Below, one piece after another: positions 11,761 through 41,927 of a DNA stretch of 64,000 nucleotides; positions within the stretch are counted from its first letter, which is position 1; each line of letters begins with the position of its first letter. This DNA comes from Cokeromyces recurvatus (taxonomy: Eukaryota; Mucoromycota; Mucoromycetes; Mucorales; Mucoraceae): contig NW_026251393.1 in the NCBI RefSeq assembly GCF_025118155.1, positions 434,001 to 498,000 of the forward strand, in the 5' to 3' direction. The notes under the pieces were generated by a model. It made no database searches. It was given only the letters and a program-made list of their open reading frames with translations, and had not been told where the DNA came from. The translations under genes were made by a program, and so were the position numbers.

Positions 11761-11831
11761 GCTGGTATAGTATAGTGGCAGTACATCACGTTGTGGCCGT
11801 GTCGACGCAGGTTCGATTCCTGCTACCAGCA
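11761..11831 (+). tRNA. tRNA-His (anticodon GTG)
   Basis: The 71-nt cloverleaf is complete without an intron. The acceptor stem GCTGGTA pairs perfectly with TACCAGC and is followed by discriminator A. The D stem is GTAT/GTAC. The anticodon loop TTGTGGC gives GTG (His), and the T arm is GCAGG-TTCGATT-CCTGC. The anticodon stem has four pairs plus a U-U mismatch at its outer end (27:43). As in other eukaryotes, G-1 is not encoded and must be added after transcription by THG1, whose gene is at 45966-47067 in this window. Confidence 0.95.
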
Positions 11832-29758: not shown

Positions 29759-31677
29759 ATGTGTGGTATCTGTGCCATTTATAACTATCAAGGTGATATT
29801 GACGCCTATCGTCAACGTGCTCTTTATCTCTCTAAAAAGTAAATCTTATAACATAATACAATCAATCAAACAACTGTACCTTAACAAGCTATATATTGTA
29901 TTTTATTTTATTCTTTTAGGATTAGACACCGTGGTCCTGATTGGTCTGGTTGTCATGTAGCTAACAACACAATCCTTTGTCATGAACGTTTAGCTATTGT
30001 CGGTGTTGGTAAGAAAAAAAAATAAATATTATATATCGAGGATGAATAACTTATATTTTATTTTAAGGCTCTGGTGCTCAACCTCTTGTTAGTGAAGATG
30101 GTAACCTTGTTCTTTGTGTTAATGGTGAAATCTATAACCATAAACAATTAAGAAAACAATTAAAGAAGCCTCATCAATTTAAGACTGAATCTGACTGTGA
30201 AGTTATCATGCATATGGTAGGTGAAAAATGAATCAGCTAAAAGGAAATAAAATAAAACTGACCTTTTATTTTATTTTATTTTATTTAAAAAAAGTATGAT
30301 GAAATGGGTACAGATCTTGTTCAACATTTAGATGGTATGTTTTCCTTTGTTCTGTTAGATGTTAAACGCAACCGTATTATTGCTGCTCGCGATCCTATTG
30401 GTATTACAACCCTTTACTACGGTTGGTCTAGTAAAATGCCCGAAACTGTCTTTTTTGCTTCTGAACTTAAATGTCTTAATGAAGAATGTGACACCATCTT
30501 GGCTTTCCCTCCTGGTCATCTTTATGATTCTGAGACTAAGGAAACCACACGTTGGTTTAACCCTACTTGGTGGGAACCTGAACGTATCCCTACTAACGAA
30601 GTAGATTATACACTTTTAAGAGAAGCTCTTGAAAAATCTGTTCGTAAGCGTCTTATGGCTGAGGTTCCTTATGGTGTTCTCTTGAGTGGTGGTCTTGATT
30701 CAAGTTTAATTGCTGCTATTGCTGTTAGAGAAGCTGAAAAGATTGCAAGAGGGGGTCGTCCTGCAGATCCTGATTTTGATGAAAGCGGTCCCATGAACTG
30801 GCCTGGCGTTCATTCCTTCTCTATCGGTTTACCCGGTTCTCCTGATTTAATTGCTGCTAGAGAAGTAGCTAAATATCTTAATACAATTCACCACGAATAT
30901 ACTTTCACAATTCAAGAAGCCTTAGATGCCGTTAGTGATGTCATTTATCATCTTGAAACTTATGATGTAACTACCATTCGTGCTTCAACTCCTATGTATC
31001 TTTTATCACGTAAGATTAAGGCAATGGGTGTCAAGATGGTTCTCTCTGGTGAAGGTTCGGATGAAGTCTTTGGTGGCTACCTTTACTTCCATCAAGCCCC
31101 TGATGCTCCTTCCTTCCATGCTGAATGTGTAACTCGTGTTAGAAACTTGCACACCTCTGACTGTCTTCGTGCTAATAAATCTACAATGGCATGGGGTCTT
31201 GAAGCTCGTGTTCCTTTCCTTGATAGAGACTTCTTGGAGGTTGCCATGAACATTAAACCCGAAGAAAAGCGTCCTAACTCAAAATTAGGTCGCATGGAGA
31301 AATATATTATTCGTAAGGCCTTTGATACCTCAGATGATCCTAATGCTAAGCCTTATTTACCTACAAACATCTTATGGAGACAAAAGGAACAATTCTCGGA
31401 TGGTGTTGGTTATAGTTGGATCGATTCTTTAAAGGCTGTGAGTGAAAATAAGGTTAGTTCAGAAGAATTAGCTCAAGCTGCATCTCGATGGGAAAAGGAT
31501 ACTCCTGATACAAAGGAAGCTTACATGTATCGTGTTATGTTTGAGCAATGGTTCCCTCAACCTGCTTGTACTGCTTCTGTTGTTCGTTGGGTTCCTCGTA
31601 CTGATTGGGGTTGTTCCTCTGATCCTTCTGGTCGTGCACAAAAGGTTCACGAGAAAGCTTACGAAAAAGAAGCATAA
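29759..31677 (+). CDS. ASN1: Asparagine synthetase (glutamine-hydrolysing)
   Basis: Four exons, 29759-29838, 29920-30008, 30068-30216 and 30295-31677, give 566 aa (yeast Asn1 is 572). Class II glutamine amidotransferase domain: Met-Cys start with the Cys nucleophile exposed after Met removal, RHRGPDWSG, and NGEIYNH. The synthetase domain has the PP-loop SGGLDSS, then [12 protein letters not shown] and RVPFLDRDF. It converts aspartate, glutamine and ATP to asparagine in the cytosol. Codon use in the long last exon is biased to C/T-ending codons, richer in GC than neighbours, which suggests high expression. Confidence 0.97.
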
Positions 31678-31717
31678 ATTATAATGATAATTGTATACAT
31701 TTTTACTTTCAATTTTA

Positions 31718-31749
<32 letters not shown>

Positions 31750-31990
31750 AAATGTGTATGTATATACAATATAACTCAACCTTCCTCTTTATATATATAG
31801 AAATAAATTTAAATTATGTGTATAAAAATCTCGATTTTTTTTTTTATTATTAAATCAGCATAATTGTTGTACATATTTACATATAAAGTAGAGTTCTACA
31901 AATTATATAGCATCAGGCGTATGACAGGCAAAAAGTTTATTTTATTAGGTTGACTGTCATAACAAAATAGAGTACATCATTATTATTATA
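31678..31990. other. Short intergenic before the composite element
   Basis: ASN1 3' region with an (ATT)n run at about 31720-31750. It ends in the TA dinucleotide (31989-31990) that borders the mobile element. Confidence 0.6.
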
Positions 31991-33075
31991 CAGTTAGTGC
32001 AACACTAAAGGATGGTTTTTTAAATAAAAGGATGGTTTTTAAAATTCTCAATAGGCGGTTACAATTTTCTCAAGAGGCGGTTTTCGATCCTCAGTAGATA
32101 TTTTTTACAGTTGCTTGTGACATTTTATTAGATAGGATTGCCTTTTAAGCAATCTTCAAATATGTTTACTGAATGTTGTACAAATGCTCAAAGATGTTCT
32201 GGAGGAACATTATTGCAAGCCTCAGTTATTCTTGTTGATAAGTCCTCTTTGGTTTGAAATTGACTACGTTTGACCTTATTTTTAACTATGGACCAAAATT
32301 ACTCAATAGGATTAAGCTCAGGGGAATAAGGAGGGAGATAAATGCACTTATATCCTCTCTCTCTCTCTCTGTCACCATAGTATCAATCTCGTTAGATGTA
32401 TGGATTGGTGCATTATCCATAACTATATAATATCCTTTCATTTCCAGAATGCAATCCATTTCATCCATTGTTTTCTGAATAAAATTCATATAATGTCCAG
32501 TGACAGTTCCTTTGGAAGCAGGCTTCTTTGGTGTTTGATGATGCTTTTCTTTTGCGATTACCAGAATCGATTTTTAGCCTTTTGAATGTGTGTTCCTGAG
32601 GATTTCAAAGCTCCATTGACACGACATACTTTGCCGAGATTGCACCCAAAACTATGGTGTGATATTGCTCTGGTGGTAGGAGTGATTACAATAGCTGGTG
32701 TGCCCTTAATAGATCATCCTCCTGGAGGTCTCATATTGATATCGAAGGCTGATTCATCAACAAAAAAACAGTTTTCAAGGTAATCCATATCTGTTTTGCT
32801 CCACTTCTCAACCCCACGCTATGTGGTTTGCAACTTTGGTGGAATCGTTTCTGGGAGCTGGATGACGAGTGATTTTTTTTTTTTTTGAATGAAAGGTTGC
32901 ATTCTGTTTTGAGGAAACTTCTCACACTTGATTCTTTCAGTGTGAATGATTCGAATTTTTCAGTAAGTGAACAAACTGCATCCACAACCCTGGCTTGAGG
33001 ATTACTGCCATAAAAATTTAAAAGGTGAATCTTATGCTTCTCATCAAGCTGGCCCGCTGATTTATTGATTTTATT

Positions 33076-33117
<42 letters not shown>

Positions 33118-33564
33118 CGAAGATATTCCAATCTTTATCCTCTTTCAGTCTCCTAGCCCATTTCTGTGCAGTTCTTTCAACAACACCGCCTGCTAATCTA
33201 CCAGAGTTGGCAGCATTGAACAACTTAATCCTATTGTAATAGACAAAAAGCAGTTTCTGATCATTGGTGTAGTTGTTATAACTCCTACTCCTATTGATCT
33301 TTACGTTGGTGGCAATCTCCTCCATCTCAGCATCTAAGGCTTCCATCTCAGTGTCCTTCTGCTCTGTATTTTGCTTCTCGCAGTAAAGTCGAAGACGAGT
33401 TAACGTTTTTAGATGGAAGGGGTTAATCTCTTCTTCGCATTCCATCGCATCGCACCCATTTTCATCACAACTATTTCCCTGGCCATCTTCCTAAGAAAAG
33501 TATGAACTCATTTAACAAAAGTAAAGAGAATTTTAAAAACCGCCCTTTAGTGTTGCGCTAACTG
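31991..33564 (-). pseudogene. Tc1/mariner-type element, left arm, dead DDE transposase
   Basis: A 1,574-bp element with terminal inverted repeats (CAGTTAGTGCAACACTAAAG... at the outer end, matching the inner end) and TA on both sides. The minus-strand transposase reading starts near 33445 with an acidic N terminus, then an HTH-like segment (GRLAGGVVERTAQKWARRL). It is cut by the T40 run at 33078-33117. It resumes with SAGQLDEKHK, the first catalytic Asp in FFVDESAF (about 32765), the second in YIVMDNAPIH (about 32425-32400), and PPYSPELNPIE followed by TAA where Gln is expected. Further stops follow. It cannot encode a full transposase. Confidence 0.88.
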
Positions 33565-33566
33565 TA

Positions 33567-33859
33567 CTGTGCTTCCACTCTCAATATACCTGATGTTTTT
33601 GATACTTGTGTCAGGATAAATGGCCCAGAAAAGGGGGACAAACTTGGTCATATGTTTGAAGCTAATTAGCCCAGCTGCTTGAAAATTAATTACCCGGTAA
33701 TTTGAACAGCTTCTTGTCAAAATGATTCTATCTAGGTTAAATTCGATACGACTCTACATATAAAGCTTATAAACAGATTTTATATTTATTTAAAGAAGGT
33801 ATGGGAGCAATAATAAGTACATATTTAATTATTGTTATGATGCGGGAAAGGGCTTTGTA
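33567..33859. repeat. Inner inverted repeat, left copy
   Basis: About 293 bp directly inside the left Tc1-like element. It is the inverse of 37796-38088. It carries no ORF. It may be the terminal repeat of an older element into which the Tc1-like element inserted, or simply sequence captured in an inverted duplication. Confidence 0.85.
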
Positions 33860-33868
33860 GATTACGAT

Positions 33869-34159
33869 TTATTTTAAATTAAGGGCATGATTAATCAGGG
33901 CTTCCTTCCATGCAAGTATATTTGGTATTTTATTTATATAGGGGATTAATTTTCTCGACGTAGTTGGGATTTCTACAACTACATCAGCTGTCCTATACAT
34001 TACACCATCGTAATGAACAAGCTTCTCAAAGTAAATGTATGCCCTATCGTATAGTAAAAAAGGAGATTTGGTAAACACTTTTTCCAAATCGATTGTACTC
34101 CATATAAAATCAGACAGCATCTTAAGACGATCTATAAATTTTTTTGAGACGATTTTCAT
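33869..34159 (-). CDS. Hypothetical 96-aa ORF inside the composite element
   Basis: A single uninterrupted minus-strand ORF with ordinary amino-acid composition, including basic N-terminal and aromatic-rich central parts. No domain was recognised. It is divergent from the ORF at 34201 (41 bp apart). It begins immediately inside the left arm, so it may be the remnant of a longer element gene. Confidence 0.4.
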   Translation of the reverse strand: MKIVSKKFIDRLKMLSDFIWSTIDLEKVFTKSPFLLYDRAYIYFEKLVHYDGVMYRTADVVVEIPTTSRKLIPYINKIPNILAWKEALINHALNLK

Positions 34160-34200
34160 TTTATTTTAGATCTTTCACTCAAACAATTAAAATTACAATA

Positions 34201-34476
34201 TGGATTTTATTCACTACAACCCATCAGAAGACCCTTATTTAAATTACGATGAGAGTTCAGACGAAATGGACCTTGATAATTTGGCATTTCAACATGAAGA
34301 AATTGAAAAGTTCGTTTACATAAACACAGTAATTGTCGTAGATCGTTACTGTACAATGGTTTTGGCACCTATTATTCTTGATACTGTCTTTAAGAGTTCA
34401 ATGTCGAAATGGTTAATATGTTTTCATTGTTATAAAGTTCTGTTATTGAATACCTACCATGTCTTTGCTCTTTAAA
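34201..34476 (+). CDS. Hypothetical 91-aa ORF inside the composite element
   Basis: The N-terminal ~37 residues are acidic and protein-like (SEDPYLNYDESSDEMDLDNL); the remainder is less convincing and may run past an unrecognised donor. It could be the first exon of a longer gene, possibly even of the gene at 35808 across the tandem repeats. No family recognised. Confidence 0.35.
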
Positions 34477-34695
34477 ATCAACCAAAGTTCCTAAACGATT
34501 CTTATCATTTGGTTAGTTTTTTTAGTTGTAACCATACTGCATATTTTCTTAGGAGGGGCTAGGTTTCAAATGTTAAGCAATTGGTCAATAACTTCTGTCG
34601 CAGGAGGCCACGTACTAAAACAGTTGACATTTATTTTCATCGCGCTGAGCTGAATTATAAAGCCTATATATAAAGAGAAGAGGAGGACTTAGAGC

Positions 34696-35630
34696 TTTGT
34701 CCCATTGCAAACATATGCAGATTACCTTAGTTTTTCCAAAGAGTAAATGAATAACAAGACAAGTAATAAGCTATCATGCCTAAGATACACCACGTTGTAT
34801 ATGAGGAGCGTAACCAACCCCTTTACTGTGTATAAAAGGCTCTGTCAAAACGAAGTGGTCTTCCTAAGGAATCACCCAAAGGAGACCGTTTCCAACCTTC
34901 GTTTAAAACATTCCCAAAGGAATGTTCCCAGGTCGCTATGCACTGGAACAGCTGGTAGTTATTCTCATCTTGTTGAGGTTTAATGCTTACAAAATAAAAT
35001 AAAATAAATAAGTTTTGTCCCATTGCAAACATATGCAGATTACCTTAGTTTTTCCAAAGAGTAAATGAATAACAAGACAAGTAATAAGCTATCATGCCTA
35101 AGATACACCACGTTGTATATGAGGAGCGTAACCAACCCCTTTACTGTGTATAAAAGGCTCTGTCAAAACGAAGTGGTCTTCCTAAGGAATCACCCAAAGG
35201 AGACCGTTTCCAACCTTCGTTTAAAACATTCCCAAAGGAATGTTCCCAGGTCGCTATGCACTGGAACAGCTGGTAGTTATTCTCATCTTGTTGAGGTTTA
35301 ATGCTTACAAAATAAAATAAAATAAATAAGTTTTGTCCCATTGCAAACATATGCAGATTACCTTAGTTTTTCCAAAGAGTAAATGAATAACAAGACAAGT
35401 AATAAGCTATCATGCCTAAGATACACCACGTTGTATATGAGGAGCGTAACCAACCCCTTTACTGTGTATAAAAGGCTCTGTCAAAACGAAGTGGTCTTCC
35501 TAAGGAATCACCCAAAGGAGACCGTTTCCAACCTTCGTTTAAAACATTCCCAAAGGAATGTTCCCAGGTCGCTATGCACTGGAACAGCTGGTAGTTATTC
35601 TCATCTTGTTGAGGTTTAATGCTTACAAAA
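34696..35630 (+). repeat. Three tandem copies of a 318-bp unit
   Basis: Copies start at 34696, 35014 and 35332. The third ends at about 35630, losing the AAAATAAAAT tail to an A run. The copies look identical: the same 78-residue plus-strand and 69-residue minus-strand frames open in all three, and stay open only because the DNA repeats. Each unit contains GTGTATAAAAGG (TATA-box-like) and a perfect hairpin AACATTCC-CAAA-GGAATGTT, with GGAATGTTCC resembling a heat-shock-element core. The array is 178 bp upstream of the cargo gene ATG. Confidence 0.93.
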
Positions 35631-35807
35631 AAAAAAAAAAAAAAAAGACAACAAAAACAAAAATAAAAAAAAAAACAAAAAAAAAAAAAAAAGTTAAGAG
35701 TAAGAAATATGATGATGCCAGAAAAAAAAATTGTCACGAATAGCATTTTTTAATTTATTTTAAGTCCTGTAAATATCTGATAACTTTGCTCTTTTCTCCT
35801 TAGAAAC

Positions 35808-37483
35808 ATGGAGGTCTCACATACAGAATGGATTCTACACAACTGGAAACCAGATACAACGTTCCAAGCGCTTGCCTTTGCTAAGAATTCGAAGTGTGAA
35901 GATTGGTTCTCTTGCTTACGTGTACTTGAAGGAGCTTTGATTAATATTGGTAGCTTGAATTTGAAACACAATACAAAGAGAGAGGTTATTCTGTGGGCCA
36001 GGAAGCACCAAAAGAAACCAAGAGAAGTACGCGTATTTTTTTTTCTAAAGCTTGTATTAATTATTAAAATTATGTTTAGCTGCTAGATACTACGTTGGTG
36101 AGACAGTTTTTTTACTTGAAGACCAGGCAGAAGCTCATGATAAATAAGAAATACCTTTCCTTGACTATTAAAAATAAGCTAATTGAGGATGAAATTAAAT
36201 TGGCTAAGGCTGATTCTGAAACACTTAATCGGGCTGATAAAAATCAAGAAAATAGTATTAGTTATGAAGATCATAATATAAACAATACAAGAGAGGATAT
36301 CAATGATTTTGCAGAAGATAAGTTTGAAACTGCAAATGATACAGTTGATGAACATAATATTCCATTTGAAGACATGTTTAAAAAATTAAATCAAAACGAC
36401 AAATGGTATCTTTCAACTGGTAAATGTGTGGATGATGAGCTTTTTATGTTTGGTCTGCAGTGCGAGTCTGATCATCCGAGCCGATCATTGATTATTGACC
36501 CATACGACAAGAACTACACCTCTTACAATGTGTTTACTGAAGAAGAACTTCAAGAAATCATAAACTATAAAAAGAAAAGCTTTCCAAAACCTCCAGATTC
36601 TTTGAAAAATTTTTTAAATCAATACAACCAAGACAGCACAGCTAAGCTTCGAACTGCTTTAGGAAATAATCATACTTTTCACTCTGACTACAACAAAGAA
36701 GAAAGCGCTGACAAGGACTGGATCAATCTGGTTATCTTTTCCCTGGTTCGAGAATACGAAAATGGTAATATGAATAGGACTCATAACGAACGATGGTATC
36801 AAACCCACATTTGGTCAATGATCGAATCTTGTTTCGATAAATTAAAGGATGTTGAGGCTGTCGGTGGCGAGTCTGCTTGTCTAGGGACTAAGAAAAGGAA
36901 AAATAACACAAGAATCATTGGATCCATTTCAAAAATCAGTCGATCTAAGTATGGTCACAAGTGCGACTTAATTTTTAGACAATACAACAATCAACATACT
37001 GTCCCTTTGGAGTTTGGTGCTAGTGAAGCCAAATCAAAGATTGAGGATGAATCTGGTACAAATTTTATGAATGAAGGCTTCTACAAGTTACCACGTACAC
37101 TGAAAGACATGTTGGACTCTTTACTCAAGGAAATCAACTTTGATCATCGTTCAGAGGCGATTCGCACTGTTGGATTTATTCATTCTGGCTTGTCAAGCAC
37201 GCTGATTGAGTTGGACAGACCCACCAAGTACATTTCGCGTGTTTCAAGATGCAAGACGTTGGTGATTAGTAACTCTGTGAATCAGTTTGGACCTACTGTC
37301 TTACCAGTTATTCTTTCTACCTGGGTGTGCTCTGAAATTGTCAAGGAAGTGTTTGAAATCATTTCGTCCAAAAATAAATCCAATGAAAATGACATTGCAT
37401 GGTTTGATAACTGTTTGGAGAGAAGGCCCCCCCAAATATGCCAACAACATCGTCATCAATCGAAACAGCACAAAAAAAATTGA
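35808..37483 (+). CDS. Cargo gene of the composite element, possible PD-(D/E)XK nuclease-like protein
   Basis: Exons 35808-36026 and 36080-37483, joined through a canonical 53-nt intron (GTACGC...TTTAG), give 540 intact aa. There are no stops or frameshifts, unlike the transposases around it. The N-terminal ~75 residues (TEWILHNWKP) form a helical domain. Residues about 110-170 are acidic and polar. The C-terminal half has YQTHIWSMIESCFDKL, then GHKCDLIFR with D369 and PLEFGASEAK with E384 and K391. The spacing is compatible with a PD-(D/E)XK restriction-like core, though the second half is E-F-G rather than E-x-K. The nuclease idea is inference; a transposition accessory or captured host gene is equally open. 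No known family was recalled with confidence. Confidence 0.7.
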
Positions 37484-37795
37484 AGTCATACCATTAAGAA
37501 TCCGTTTTCTTTTTTCTTTCTTTTCTTTTTTTTTTAAAAAAAAAACAAAAAGTAAAAGTTAGTTATTGATAGTACCTCTATAAAGTTTTTATCTATTATT
37601 GCCACACCCCTATATCATCATAAAGAGTCACTCTGTCATTCATGAATTTTTTTGTTAATAAAAAATAAACAATGTGGACGGGAGAGAAAGAGATAAGTAC
37701 CCCTTCTGAGCTGTTCAAAAGTAATATCATTGTTATGCAGCAACAGCTCAAAATAAAAAAAAAATATAATACAACGTTGTGTATATTAGGCAAGG
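37484..37795. other. Non-coding stretch after the cargo gene
   Basis: T- and A-rich 3' region (runs at 37524-37555) followed by sequence with no coding character up to the right inverted arm. Confidence 0.5.
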
Positions 37796-38088
37796 TACAA
37801 AGCCCTTTCCCGCATCATAACAATAATTAAATATGTACTTATTATTGCTCCCATACCTTCTTTAAATAAATATAAAATCTGTTTATAAGCTTTATATGTA
37901 GAGTCGTATCGAATTTAACCTAGATAGAATCATTTTGACAAGAAGCTGTTCAAATTACCGGGTAATTAATTTTCAAGCAGCTGGGCTAATTAGCTTCAAA
38001 CATATGACCAAGTTTGTCCCCCTTTTCTGGGCCATTTATCCTGACACAAGTATCAAAAACATCAGGTATATTGAGAGTGGAAGCACAG
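37796..38088. repeat. Inner inverted repeat, right copy
   Basis: Inverse of 33567-33859. It begins TACAAAGCCCTTTCCCGC and ends GAAGCACAG just before the TA that borders the right Tc1-like element. No ORF. Confidence 0.85.
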
Positions 38089-38090
38089 TA

Positions 38091-38537
38091 CAGTTAGCGC
38101 AACACTAAAGGGCGGTTTTTAAAATTCTCTTTACTTTTGTTAAATGAGTTCATACTTTTCTTAGGAAGATGGCCAGGGAAATAGTTGTGATGAAAATGGG
38201 TGCGATGCGATGGAATGCGAAGAAGAGATTAACCCCTTCCATCTAAAAACGTTAACTCGTCTTCGACTTTACTGCGAGAAGCAAAATACAGAGCAGAAGG
38301 ACACTGAGATGGAAGCCTTAGATGCTGAGATGGAGGAGATTGCCACCAACGTAAAGATCAATAGGGGTAGGAGTTATAACAACTACACCAATGATCAGAA
38401 ACTGCTTTTTGTCTATTACAATAGGATTAAGTTGTTCAATGCTGCCAACTCTGGTAGATTAGCAGGCGGTGTTGTTGAAAGAACTGCACAGAAATGGGCT
38501 AGGAGACTGAAAGAGGATAAAGATTGGAATATCTTCG

Positions 38538-38591
<54 letters not shown>

Positions 38592-39676
38592 AATAAAATC
38601 AATAAATCAGCGGGCCAGCTTGATGAGAAGCATAAGATTCACCTTTTAAATTTTTATGGCAGTAATCCTCAAGCCAGGGTTGTGGATGCAGTTTGTTCAC
38701 TTACTGAAAAATTCGAATCATTCACACTGAAAGAATCAAGTGTGAGAAGTTTCCTCAAAACAGAATGCAACCTTTCATTCAAAAAAAAAAAAAATCACTC
38801 GTCATCCAGCTCCCAGAAACGATTCCACCAAAGTTGCAAACCACATAGCGTGGGGTTGAGAAGTGGAGCAAAACAGATATGGATTACCTTGAAAACTGTT
38901 TTTTTGTTGATGAATCAGCCTTCGATATCAATATGAGACCTCCAGGAGGATGATCTATTAAGGGCACACCAGCTATTGTAATCACTCCTACCACCAGAGC
39001 AATATCACACCATAGTTTTGGGTGCAATCTCGGCAAAGTATGTCGTGTCAATGGAGCTTTGAAATCCTCAGGAACACACATTCAAAAGGCTAAAAATCGA
39101 TTCTGGTAATCGCAAAAGAAAAGCATCATCAAACACCAAAGAAGCCTGCTTCCAAAGGAACTGTCACTGGACATTATATGAATTTTATTCAGAAAACAAT
39201 GGATGAAATGGATTGCATTCTGGAAATGAAAGGATATTATATAGTTATGGATAATGCACCAATCCATACATCTAACGAGATTGATACTATGGTGACAGAG
39301 AGAGAGAGAGAGGATATAAGTGCATTTATCTCCCTCCTTATTCCCCTGAGCTTAATCCTATTGAGTAATTTTGGTCCATAGTTAAAAATAAGGTCAAACG
39401 TAGTCAATTTCAAACCAAAGAGGACTTATCAACAAGAATAACTGAGGCTTGCAATAATGTTCCTCCAGAACATCTTTGAGCATTTGTACAACATTCAGTA
39501 AACATATTTGAAGATTGCTTAAAAGGCAATCCTATCTAATAAAATGTCACAAGCAACTGTAAAAAATATCTACTGAGGATCGAAAACCGCCTCTTGAGAA
39601 AATTGTAACCGCCTATTGAGAATTTTAAAAACCATCCTTTTATTTAAAAAACCATCCTTTAGTGTTGCGCTAACTG
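38091..39676 (+). pseudogene. Tc1/mariner-type element, right arm, dead DDE transposase
   Basis: A 1,586-bp plus-strand copy of the left-arm element, with TIRs CAGTTAGCGCAACACTAAAG... and TA flanks at 38089-38090 and 39677-39678. It has the same HTH segment, the same interrupting homopolymer (A52 at 38538-38589), the same DESAF and MDNAPIH motifs and the same TAA after PELNPIE as the left copy. One visible amino-acid difference upstream of the A run is NRGRSYNN here against NRSRSYNN on the left. Sharing all lesions means the copies were inactive before, or were equalised after, duplication. Confidence 0.88.
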
Positions 39677-39678
39677 TA

Positions 39679-39924
39679 TATGACTCTTATATTAGGAAAA
39701 AAAAAAGCTGAATGACTTTGTCATTGTAACATTTCGTTATGATATTATACACTTTTAAATATAGCCGACTCTTAACAACAACACTGTTACTAATCTACCA
39801 GCTTTGTATTTAATCATCAAATTCTTCTTGTTTGCTTAATTAATTGTTACTGTATGCATATGTTTATAACAGCAGACCTATGTTTATAGTGTGATTTTTA
39901 ATACAATCTACTAAATATTGTATA

Positions 39925-39961
<37 letters not shown>

Positions 39962-40256
39962 TATTGTTGAGGAAAGTGTTAAGGTTGAACTAATATTTTA
40001 CATTTTTTGCACATTATTTTAAATGTCTTTCTTTAAGCCATCTTTTTCATTGTGTTGACTGTCGAGTAAACTTATTATAGATAGATTACAATATTTATAC
40101 TTTCTTCAAGGTCTATCAAATAGAATCTTTCTTGCTATACCAGATAAAATTTAAACTCAAGCTTAATGGACCTTATCATATAAATATATAAACTAGTTTA
40201 TTTTATTTAAAGATGACATACACACACACACACACTCTATATACATATACATAATT
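39679..40256. other. Intergenic, no gene recognised
   Basis: AT-rich flank with a T run (about 39929-39960) and a (CA)n run near 40216-40233, just beyond the 3' end of the coiled-coil gene. Confidence 0.5.
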
Positions 40257-41927
40257 TTATGGAAACATGTCTTGGTATGCATTAAAGTCAGTTTGCACTG
40301 ATGTATTTACCCTTTCCCATCGTTTCATTTCTTCATCTGCTTTGACGTCCCTTAATTCTTGTTCTAATCGCCTACGACGCTCTATTTCATTCTTTATCTC
40401 TTCTTCATGTTTTTCTTTAATATTAGCTACCAAATCTCTAAATTCCTTTCGTAAATTGCCATTATTATTATTATCACTATTATTACTCAATTGACACACT
40501 TGAGCATCATATAATTCCTTTTTTATTTTCTCCTTTTCTTGCTGTAGTTTCATGATTTCATCTTCAAATACTTTGCGTTCAAGATTAAAGTCTGTAATAT
40601 TTCGTGTCAAACGATCATATTCCTTTAAGATACGCTCCAATTCTGCTTCTACACTTGCTGATTGAAGTATCATAGCTGCTTCTCGTGTTGTATATGATTC
40701 TTGCGCTTCCTTGAATGCTTTCTTTACATCTTCCAATTCTTTTCTTAATAATAGTTCTGCATTATCACTATTTTTAGTAGTCATCACCTCTTCTTCTTCT
40801 TTTCCTTTCTTTGTTTCTAATAATTTTAGTTTTTCTTCAAGAGTTTGAATTCTCTTTGCATCCTCTAATTGCTTTCTCTGCCAATCTTCTAGCACACTCT
40901 TTACTGTTCTATTATGATCGTCTTGGCCTACTAAAACAATGCGTTCAACAGAAGCCCAGAGTGTTTTCATTTCATTTAATTCATCTTTCAATTCCTTATT
41001 GGCCGTGTTTATTTCATTTTGTGATAGTGCAATTCGTTGCTCATATTCTTCCTTTTGCTTTGCCAGTGCATCCTCTAGTAACGGTTCATTTAGTTTTCCT
41101 TTTAATTTCTCCAGTTCATCATCCTTTGCTTTTAAATCATGTTCCAGGGAACTAACTTGATCTTGCAAGGACTGTCGATGCCCTGTCTCACACCTCAATT
41201 GGTTCTTGAGTTCCTTTATTTTAGCCTCCTGTTGTTCGATTGTTGCTTGATATCTTTTCGAAGCCTGACTGTCTTCAGACTCATGATGATTCGATTGTTG
41301 AAGCTCATGAAATCGAATCAATTCTTCTTTCTGTTTTTGGTACTGTTGACTTAATCTGTCTATCACCTGATTTATCTTTTCTTCAATCGACATGGATACC
41401 AGGGTAGATGCCCCACTTTGATAGGATAGATCAGATGATGAAGCACTATGGGTAGTTGCAGTTGAAAGTGATGAGGTAGATGGTAATTTTTTAATAATCG
41501 GTATATTATTCTCCAACAGGTCTTGAGAGATATTTTCAAGTTTAAAGAGTATTGATTTTAGGTGCTTGTTGTATTCTATTGTTGTTGTTGTATTAAAAGG
41601 CTGTTGTTGATAAAGATATTTAGCCAAGACGCCAGCGGTATGTTCTAAATGACTCGCTTCTTGATATCGTAATCGTTGACTTGTAAAATAGAATTCATCT
41701 ATTAAAGATGCTGTCTTTTGTGTTGACTGAAATAAACTATATGCAAAGTCTTTGGACATTCTCGTATTATTATTATCTGTTATTGTAAATGATATTGCTG
41801 CAGCTCTTTGTATATCTATTTGGAGTCGAAGATGTTCATATAAAGTGTTTAGATCTATTTGCATCTTATTACATTTCTATATACATATATTTATATAAAA
41901 GGAAGAAAAAAAAATGTTAGCATTTCA

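Follow-up and report, generated by a model that had tools for sequence, protein, structure and literature searches.

Does a pair of long, nearly identical inverted arms around a gene mean that a fungal genome carries a composite transposon? The question is raised by positions 31991 to 39676 (7,686 bp) of a 64,000-nucleotide stretch of DNA from the Mucorales fungus Cokeromyces recurvatus (contig NW_026251393.1, positions 434,001 to 498,000), the whole of which we call the window. An earlier note, made from the letters alone, rightly took the DNA to be fungal, saw inverted arms of Tc1 type around a cargo gene and tandem repeats, and proposed that the entire 7.7 kb may move or have moved as one unit. 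Our best explanation, which we rate at a probability of about 0.55, is a composite-like nest of Tc1-type elements, one end of which would have been copied in inverted orientation and whose gene was probably transferred between fungal lineages.

Composition of the inverted arms

Global alignment shows that 31991-33859 (1,869 bp) and 37796-39676 (1,881 bp) are inverted copies of each other, with the same lengths that the earlier note had given. They differ by two substitutions, at 31998 and 33289, and by 12 nt in a single T run. This homopolymer had been held responsible for the difference in arm length; it does account for that, but the two substitutions come on top of it. Judged by its length and identity, such an inverted pair cannot be a product of chance. 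The outer ends read CAGTTAG(T/C)GCAACACTAAAG and have TA on either side, as described before, and the TA is indeed extended to TATA. Since TATA is present in both flanks, the mechanical repeat is 4 bp longer and runs from 31987 to 39680.

An arm is not a single unit, since an internal TA-bounded Tc1 end lies within each of them, at 33564/33565 and at 38090/38091. Each arm is made of a complete, TA-bounded, decayed Tc1-like transposon (1,574 or 1,586 bp) and of 293 bp (295 with the TA) that form the terminal repeat of an inner element. This inner element, 33567-38088, is 4.5 kb long and carries a gene for a protein of 540 amino acids (aa). Two flanking elements bracket a cargo, which is the arrangement of a composite transposon. 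The features are collected in Table 1.

Table 1. Features of the bracketed structure in the window, its neighbour and related copies elsewhere in the genome
Feature	Position	Strand	Remarks
TA, left outer border	31989..31990		TATA 31987-31990
Left outer Tc1-like element, 1,574 bp	31991..33564	-	minus-strand transposase remnant, frames broken, 40-nt T run
TA common to left Tc1-like and inner element	33565..33566
Inner element, left terminal repeat	33567..33859	+	begins CTGTGCTTCCACTCTCAATATACC; 295 bp with TA, 100% identical to right end
Continuation of left end	33860..33901	+	homologous to C4 element, missing at right end
Three 318-bp tandem repeats	34696..35644		upstream of 540-aa gene
540-aa gene, exon 1	35808..36026	+
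540-aa gene, exon 2	36080..37483	+	final 17 residues read in another frame than in relatives
Inner element, right terminal repeat	37796..38088	-
TA common to inner and right Tc1-like element	38089..38090
Right outer Tc1-like element, 1,586 bp	38091..39676	+	lesions as in left copy, 52-nt A run
TA, right outer border	39677..39678		TATA 39677-39680
Neighbour gene	40257-41864		beside the element; 100% identical to a C. recurvatus record
TA-bordered inner-family copy C9A	C9:509018-513432
TA-bordered inner-family copy, C1	C1:1254083-1256239
TA-bordered inner-family copy, C56	C56:661970-662375

The outer elements have the terminal repeat CAGTTAGYGCAACACTAAAGG at both ends. With up to 3 mismatches, this pattern has 10 matches in the 28-Mb C. 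recurvatus genome (contigs C1, C4, C9, C34 and so on) and 0 in the control; it has no match in IMG/VR. All four borders in the window have TA, and so do the two ends of C34:1132364-1133885, where the outer element stands alone. A further copy, C34:1051384-1052881, has lost one end. The transposase remnant is scattered over five pieces in three reading frames; the pieces share 41-59% identity with a DDE_3 protein of 461 aa whose frame is open in this genome. With their TA duplication, terminal inverted repeats (TIRs) and DDE transposase, broken as it is, the outer elements are Tc1/mariner elements, and the assignment in the earlier note was right. Because the transposase breaks are the same in both outer copies, neither is able to drive its own movement.

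Compared with both C34 copies, the two arm copies have several short indels in common, as well as the T/A run of 40-52 nt, which is short in C34. This indicates either a single broken ancestor or later homogenisation. The two substituted positions are T in the left arm but C in the right arm and in both C34 copies; the left arm therefore seems to hold the derived state at each of them. At C34:1051285-1052881 an outer-family copy and an inner-type end are separated by about 70 bp and have the order and orientation of the left arm. We considered this locus as a second composite, set it aside because of the gap and counted it as a neighbour.

For the inner element, we searched the genome with the first 26 bases of its end in their commonest spelling, allowing up to 3 mismatches and using a reversed control. 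There were 19 matches in the genome and 0 in the control. Facing ends pair up at five places: in the window (4,526 bp, TAs included), in C9A (4,415 bp), and on C1 (2,157 bp), C4 (1,290 bp) and C56 (406 bp). Leaving aside the single left end of C9B (see below), the list contains no facing partner for the remaining 8 ends. The window, C9A, C1 and C56 copies combine terminal repeats with a TA duplication, and C4 is without a clean TA pair. The C56 copy is a miniature element in its own right, with inner-type ends and TA borders. Near 4 of 14 inner-end loci (C9B, C4, C26 and C49) there is C-terminal sequence of a Tc1-type transposase, which ties this family of ends to Tc1. Four transposase queries found no transposase of its own in the inner element. 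On its sequence, the inner element is non-autonomous, and it is through its ends only that we assign it to Tc1/mariner. No plasmid relatives turned up in a search with the stretch 33565-33900.

The two ends of the C4 copy diverge past about 165 bp: one enters transposase C-terminal sequence and the other matches the left end of the window element for about 337 bp. Both ends in the window are of this second, non-transposase kind and are identical over 295 bp. Beyond the arm, another 42 bp of the left end follow the C4 sequence, which is not so for the right end; since, in addition, the two C4 ends differ, the right end in the window looks copied from the left. C9B, which begins at C9:502082, combines a left end with a long internal inverted repeat (269 bp, 96.7%), both sides of which are of the first, transposase-leading kind; no matching right end was found. 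There, too, one end seems to have been copied from the other.

Origin of the bracket

How did the two elements of each arm come together? Inverted copying of one end is the most likely source of the near-identity of the arms. According to the explanation that we favour, three TA-inserting Tc1-type units are stacked at shared TA sites, and the middle one would have been moved in trans by a Tc1-type transposase. The left end, that is, the terminal repeat together with the abutting Tc1-like copy, would then have been copied in inverted orientation onto the other end, perhaps by inverted end duplication or by gene conversion. In addition, horizontal transfer has probably carried the inner element, or its gene, between the lineages of Cokeromyces and Rhizopus arrhizus. 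The evidence on the bracket consists of the differences from C34 that both arms share, the near-identity of the arms, the exact abutment at TA and the copied look of the right inner end.

Several points count against this explanation. The C4 copy has GTA at its left border and TTA at its right one, which is not a clean target duplication. Long near-identical repeats occur in C9B as well, and the identity over 295 bp therefore need not stem from the same event as the identity of the Tc1 parts. No intermediate allele documents the order of events. Finally, simple gene conversion does not readily explain why the copying should stop right at the outer TA.

It is this exact stop of the homology at the outer TA that makes us keep the movement of the whole structure as a rival. 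All 7,686 bp would be, or have been, a composite transposon that used its outer Tc1-like ends and a transposase supplied in trans and that landed at a TA. The arms do end exactly at the outer Tc1 ends, with TATA on each side, as they would in a landed unit, and their segments look equally young, with 2 differences in the Tc1 part and 0 in the 295 bp. However, the complete centre has a single copy in the 28-Mb genome. The flanks (311 bp on the left, 574 bp on the right) have no second or empty site in this genome; their sole match, at C11, covers 72 bp at 79% in the far part of the right flank. Outer and inner-type elements are also found alone with TA borders of their own, and both outer transposase copies are broken. 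Of the 7.7-kb unit proposed before, the cargo within an inverted pair stands, and the movement as one unit does not follow from a single-copy centre and flanks without an empty site; we regard such movement as possible but unlikely. The borders of one composite insertion are the same as those of three nested insertions.

The flanks also bear on another explanation, that the palindrome is an artefact. Assemblies are known to be error-prone at long inverted repeats. Here, two substitutions and 12 nt distinguish the arms, and there is no second site for the flanks; we hold a faulty assembly to be very improbable. The named C. recurvatus record with the neighbour gene evidently comes from this same assembly and lends no independent support.

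Another rival turns the order of events around: a head-to-head pair of Tc1-like elements would have come first, and its central TA would later have received the inner element. The junction of such a dimer would join GCGCTAACTGTA to CAGTTAGCGC, and its core, CTAACTG-TA-CAGTTAG, is a perfect palindrome and may thus be a favoured TA target. Local inverted pairs do occur in this genome: C32:143514-144899 and C32:147439-148824 are open Tc1 transposase genes, 99% identical and inverted, with about 2.5 kb between the matches. On the other hand, a tight inverted dimer has to exist first and then receive an insertion at one of many TAs. That inner and outer segments of the arms look equally young would be a coincidence, unless conversion homogenised both. 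We hold this order of events to be possible, though as doubtful as the movement of the whole unit. End copying, insertion into a dimer and movement of a finished unit give the same borders, and one allele cannot separate them.

The carried gene and its relatives

The cargo gene between the arms is real as a two-exon model, and the related protein P0001 spans its splice junction without a gap. Past a C run near 37.43 kb, the final 17 residues are read in another frame than in relatives such as P0001, P0002 and P0004. The tandem repeats reported between the arms are three copies of 318 bp; a 300-nt reference is 100% identical across all three, and a genome search with the repeat gave no further match. 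The 540-aa protein matches no known protein family over the cut-off, and P0001 has no match in IMG/VR. Named relatives come from seven Mucorales genera among the matches listed. A scan of 30 relatives gave one DDE_1 match, two MPN domain matches and two weak HR1 matches. The relative with DDE_1 is probably P0009, a longer R. delemar protein, the start of which reads like a pogo-type transposase to us.

Is the gene found in such surroundings elsewhere? Searching the C. recurvatus genome with the family gave 24 matches, which we grouped into 17 loci. Twelve loci were fetched and 11 tested, C62:1-6000 being left out since the contig end cuts it. A flanking repeat had to be inverted, at least 40 bp long and at least 80% identical, and to lie around the gene. 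Such repeats flank 7 of the 11 loci, the window included, compared with 2 of 39 host control windows (one-sided Fisher test, 1e-4). The value becomes 7e-4 without the pair on C23, which has no TA ends and looks like low complexity, 4e-4 without the window (6/10 loci) and 2e-3 without both (5/10); all of these are optimistic because the control windows overlap and come from one region. No flanking inverted repeats were found at four tested loci (C26:252, C1:2142, C26:238 and C1:67). The 540-aa gene is thus a member of a Mucorales family that is frequently housed in elements with inverted repeats.

The carriers differ in their ends. The window type is found in the window, C9A and C9B; C45 has CAGTGCATCCACCG, C63 a weak CACYTTTTGCC pair, and C62:858 a pair of 1.07-kb arms with TA borders. 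This last carrier, C62:856294-860779 (L037 2294-6779), is an independent TA-flanked element of 4.49 kb with a family gene; its arms are 97.5% identical and contain 12-bp repeats. We also considered C45 as an autonomous Tc1 with two genes. Its transposase lies between inverted repeats of its own within the larger element, and about 10 near-identical copies of it exist in the genome, so we read it as a nested Tc1 and dropped the candidate. A transposase and a second gene within one pair of ends were found nowhere among the carriers; C9B holds transposase and 540-family sequence, but without a matching right end.

These carriers raise the possibility that the 540-aa protein is not a passenger but a mobility enzyme or an essential partner of the elements. 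Four types of terminal repeat enclose members of the gene family, and for none of them was a transposase of the element itself found (window and C9A; C62:858; C45, taken outside its nested Tc1; and C63, with its weak ends). In the family, acidic and basic positions are conserved (D369, E384, E389, K409 and K415 in P0001 numbering); they may form a PD-(D/E)XK nuclease motif, which we treat as a candidate. Yet the protein matches no transposase or nuclease family over the cut-off, the single DDE_1 match among its relatives is probably that of P0009, and ends of the window type are also found on copies with Tc1 transposase sequence, which can supply the movement. We hold a role in mobility, as enzyme or as partner, to be improbable. 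There is also a broader and speculative idea, which we consider rather unlikely: the protein would represent an undescribed accessory or mobility class of Mucorales TA-inserting transposons, end duplication would repeatedly wrap it in ends of one type, the elements would cross families, and the 7.7-kb form would be a eukaryotic composite transposon.

Returning to the favoured explanation, we compared the carried protein with a gene beside the element, asparagine synthetase. The carried protein is identical to P0001 at 490 of 523 residues, gap-free, and to P0002 of R. arrhizus at 400 of 428 aligned residues (about 93.5%). Asparagine synthetase is identical to that of R. arrhizus at 354 of 449 aligned residues (79%), to that of R. 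microsporus at 372/453 and to that of Benjaminiella poitrasii at 423/455. Cokeromyces and Benjaminiella are Mucoraceae, and Rhizopus belongs to the Rhizopodaceae. Against the close relative Benjaminiella, the carried protein is identical at only 203/279 residues, and against the best R. delemar record among the matches listed it reaches 67%. Since the carried protein varies so widely elsewhere, an identity above 93% across families is not expected by descent, and its discordance with asparagine synthetase makes horizontal transfer likely. To judge by these comparisons, the element or its gene was probably passed between the Cokeromyces and R. arrhizus lineages. Among 31 matches listed for the flanking coiled-coil gene, many of them without a name, none is named Rhizopus.

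Some observations temper the case for transfer. It rests on protein records, of which the R. arrhizus one, P0002, is without stretches of the protein, and it is calibrated with one reference gene. The C9A gene is identical to R. stolonifer P0019 at 378/523 residues (72%), and asparagine synthetase at 322/447; the gene being no more identical than asparagine synthetase, there is no sign of transfer at C9A.

Relation to known elements

Bacterial composite transposons consist of two short mobile units around a gene-bearing interior, and Foldback-type elements have an inverted-repeat architecture. Unlike the latter, the long arms here are two separate transposons. The KolobokP composite-like elements likewise have two copies of a short mobile unit around a gene, but their repeats are direct and they have their own transposase and a His-Me nuclease inside (PMC9587614), whereas the repeats here are inverted, of a family other than that of the interior, and both broken. 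The ciliate TBE/Tec elements resemble the inner element in holding extra genes within elements of the Tc1/mariner superfamily; they have a transposase open reading frame, and Tec a site-specific recombinase (PMC7325037), whereas the 540-aa gene is all that was found here. Sailor of Lobosporangium, 6,979 bp with a TIR of 1,362 bp, has kilobase inverted ends as well (PMC8533490), but the long arms here resolve into two transposons.

Mucorales are rich in Tc1/mariner elements (PMC7928374). The closest described elements are the Mucoromycotina Tc1-like elements CreTc1 (1,672 bp, 218-bp TIR) and RoTc1 (211-bp TIR) (PMC5630946). Fungal order, host species, long TIRs and Tc1-type transposase agree, and the outer arms and 1.7-kb copies of this genome are of that kind, CreTc1 being compared by its description. 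The elements of that paper are single and 0.9-1.7 kb long, and its accessible text mentions neither a 540-aa cargo nor an inverted bracket. In the open-licence literature, with subscription papers mostly outside it, we found no printed description of the family of the 540-aa protein, and none of a Mucorales composite built from Tc1 elements. The locus offers a concrete case of a protein-coding gene that seemingly travels in non-autonomous Tc1-type elements between fungal families, and one where composite-like transposition and inverted end duplication in fungi become testable.

Six Tc1-like elements of about 1.71 kb in this genome have paired ends (C1:273922, C1:940946, C4:195808, C11:88908, C23:775287 and C64:571276); with 146-bp TIRs, measured in four, and open frames of 452-461 aa, they were perhaps recently active. 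The inverted Tc1 pair on C32 could be another bracketed unit. Within 31500-40200 of the window, no known RNA family matched up to E 0.1; the sole tRNA of the window, 11761-11831, lies outside this range.

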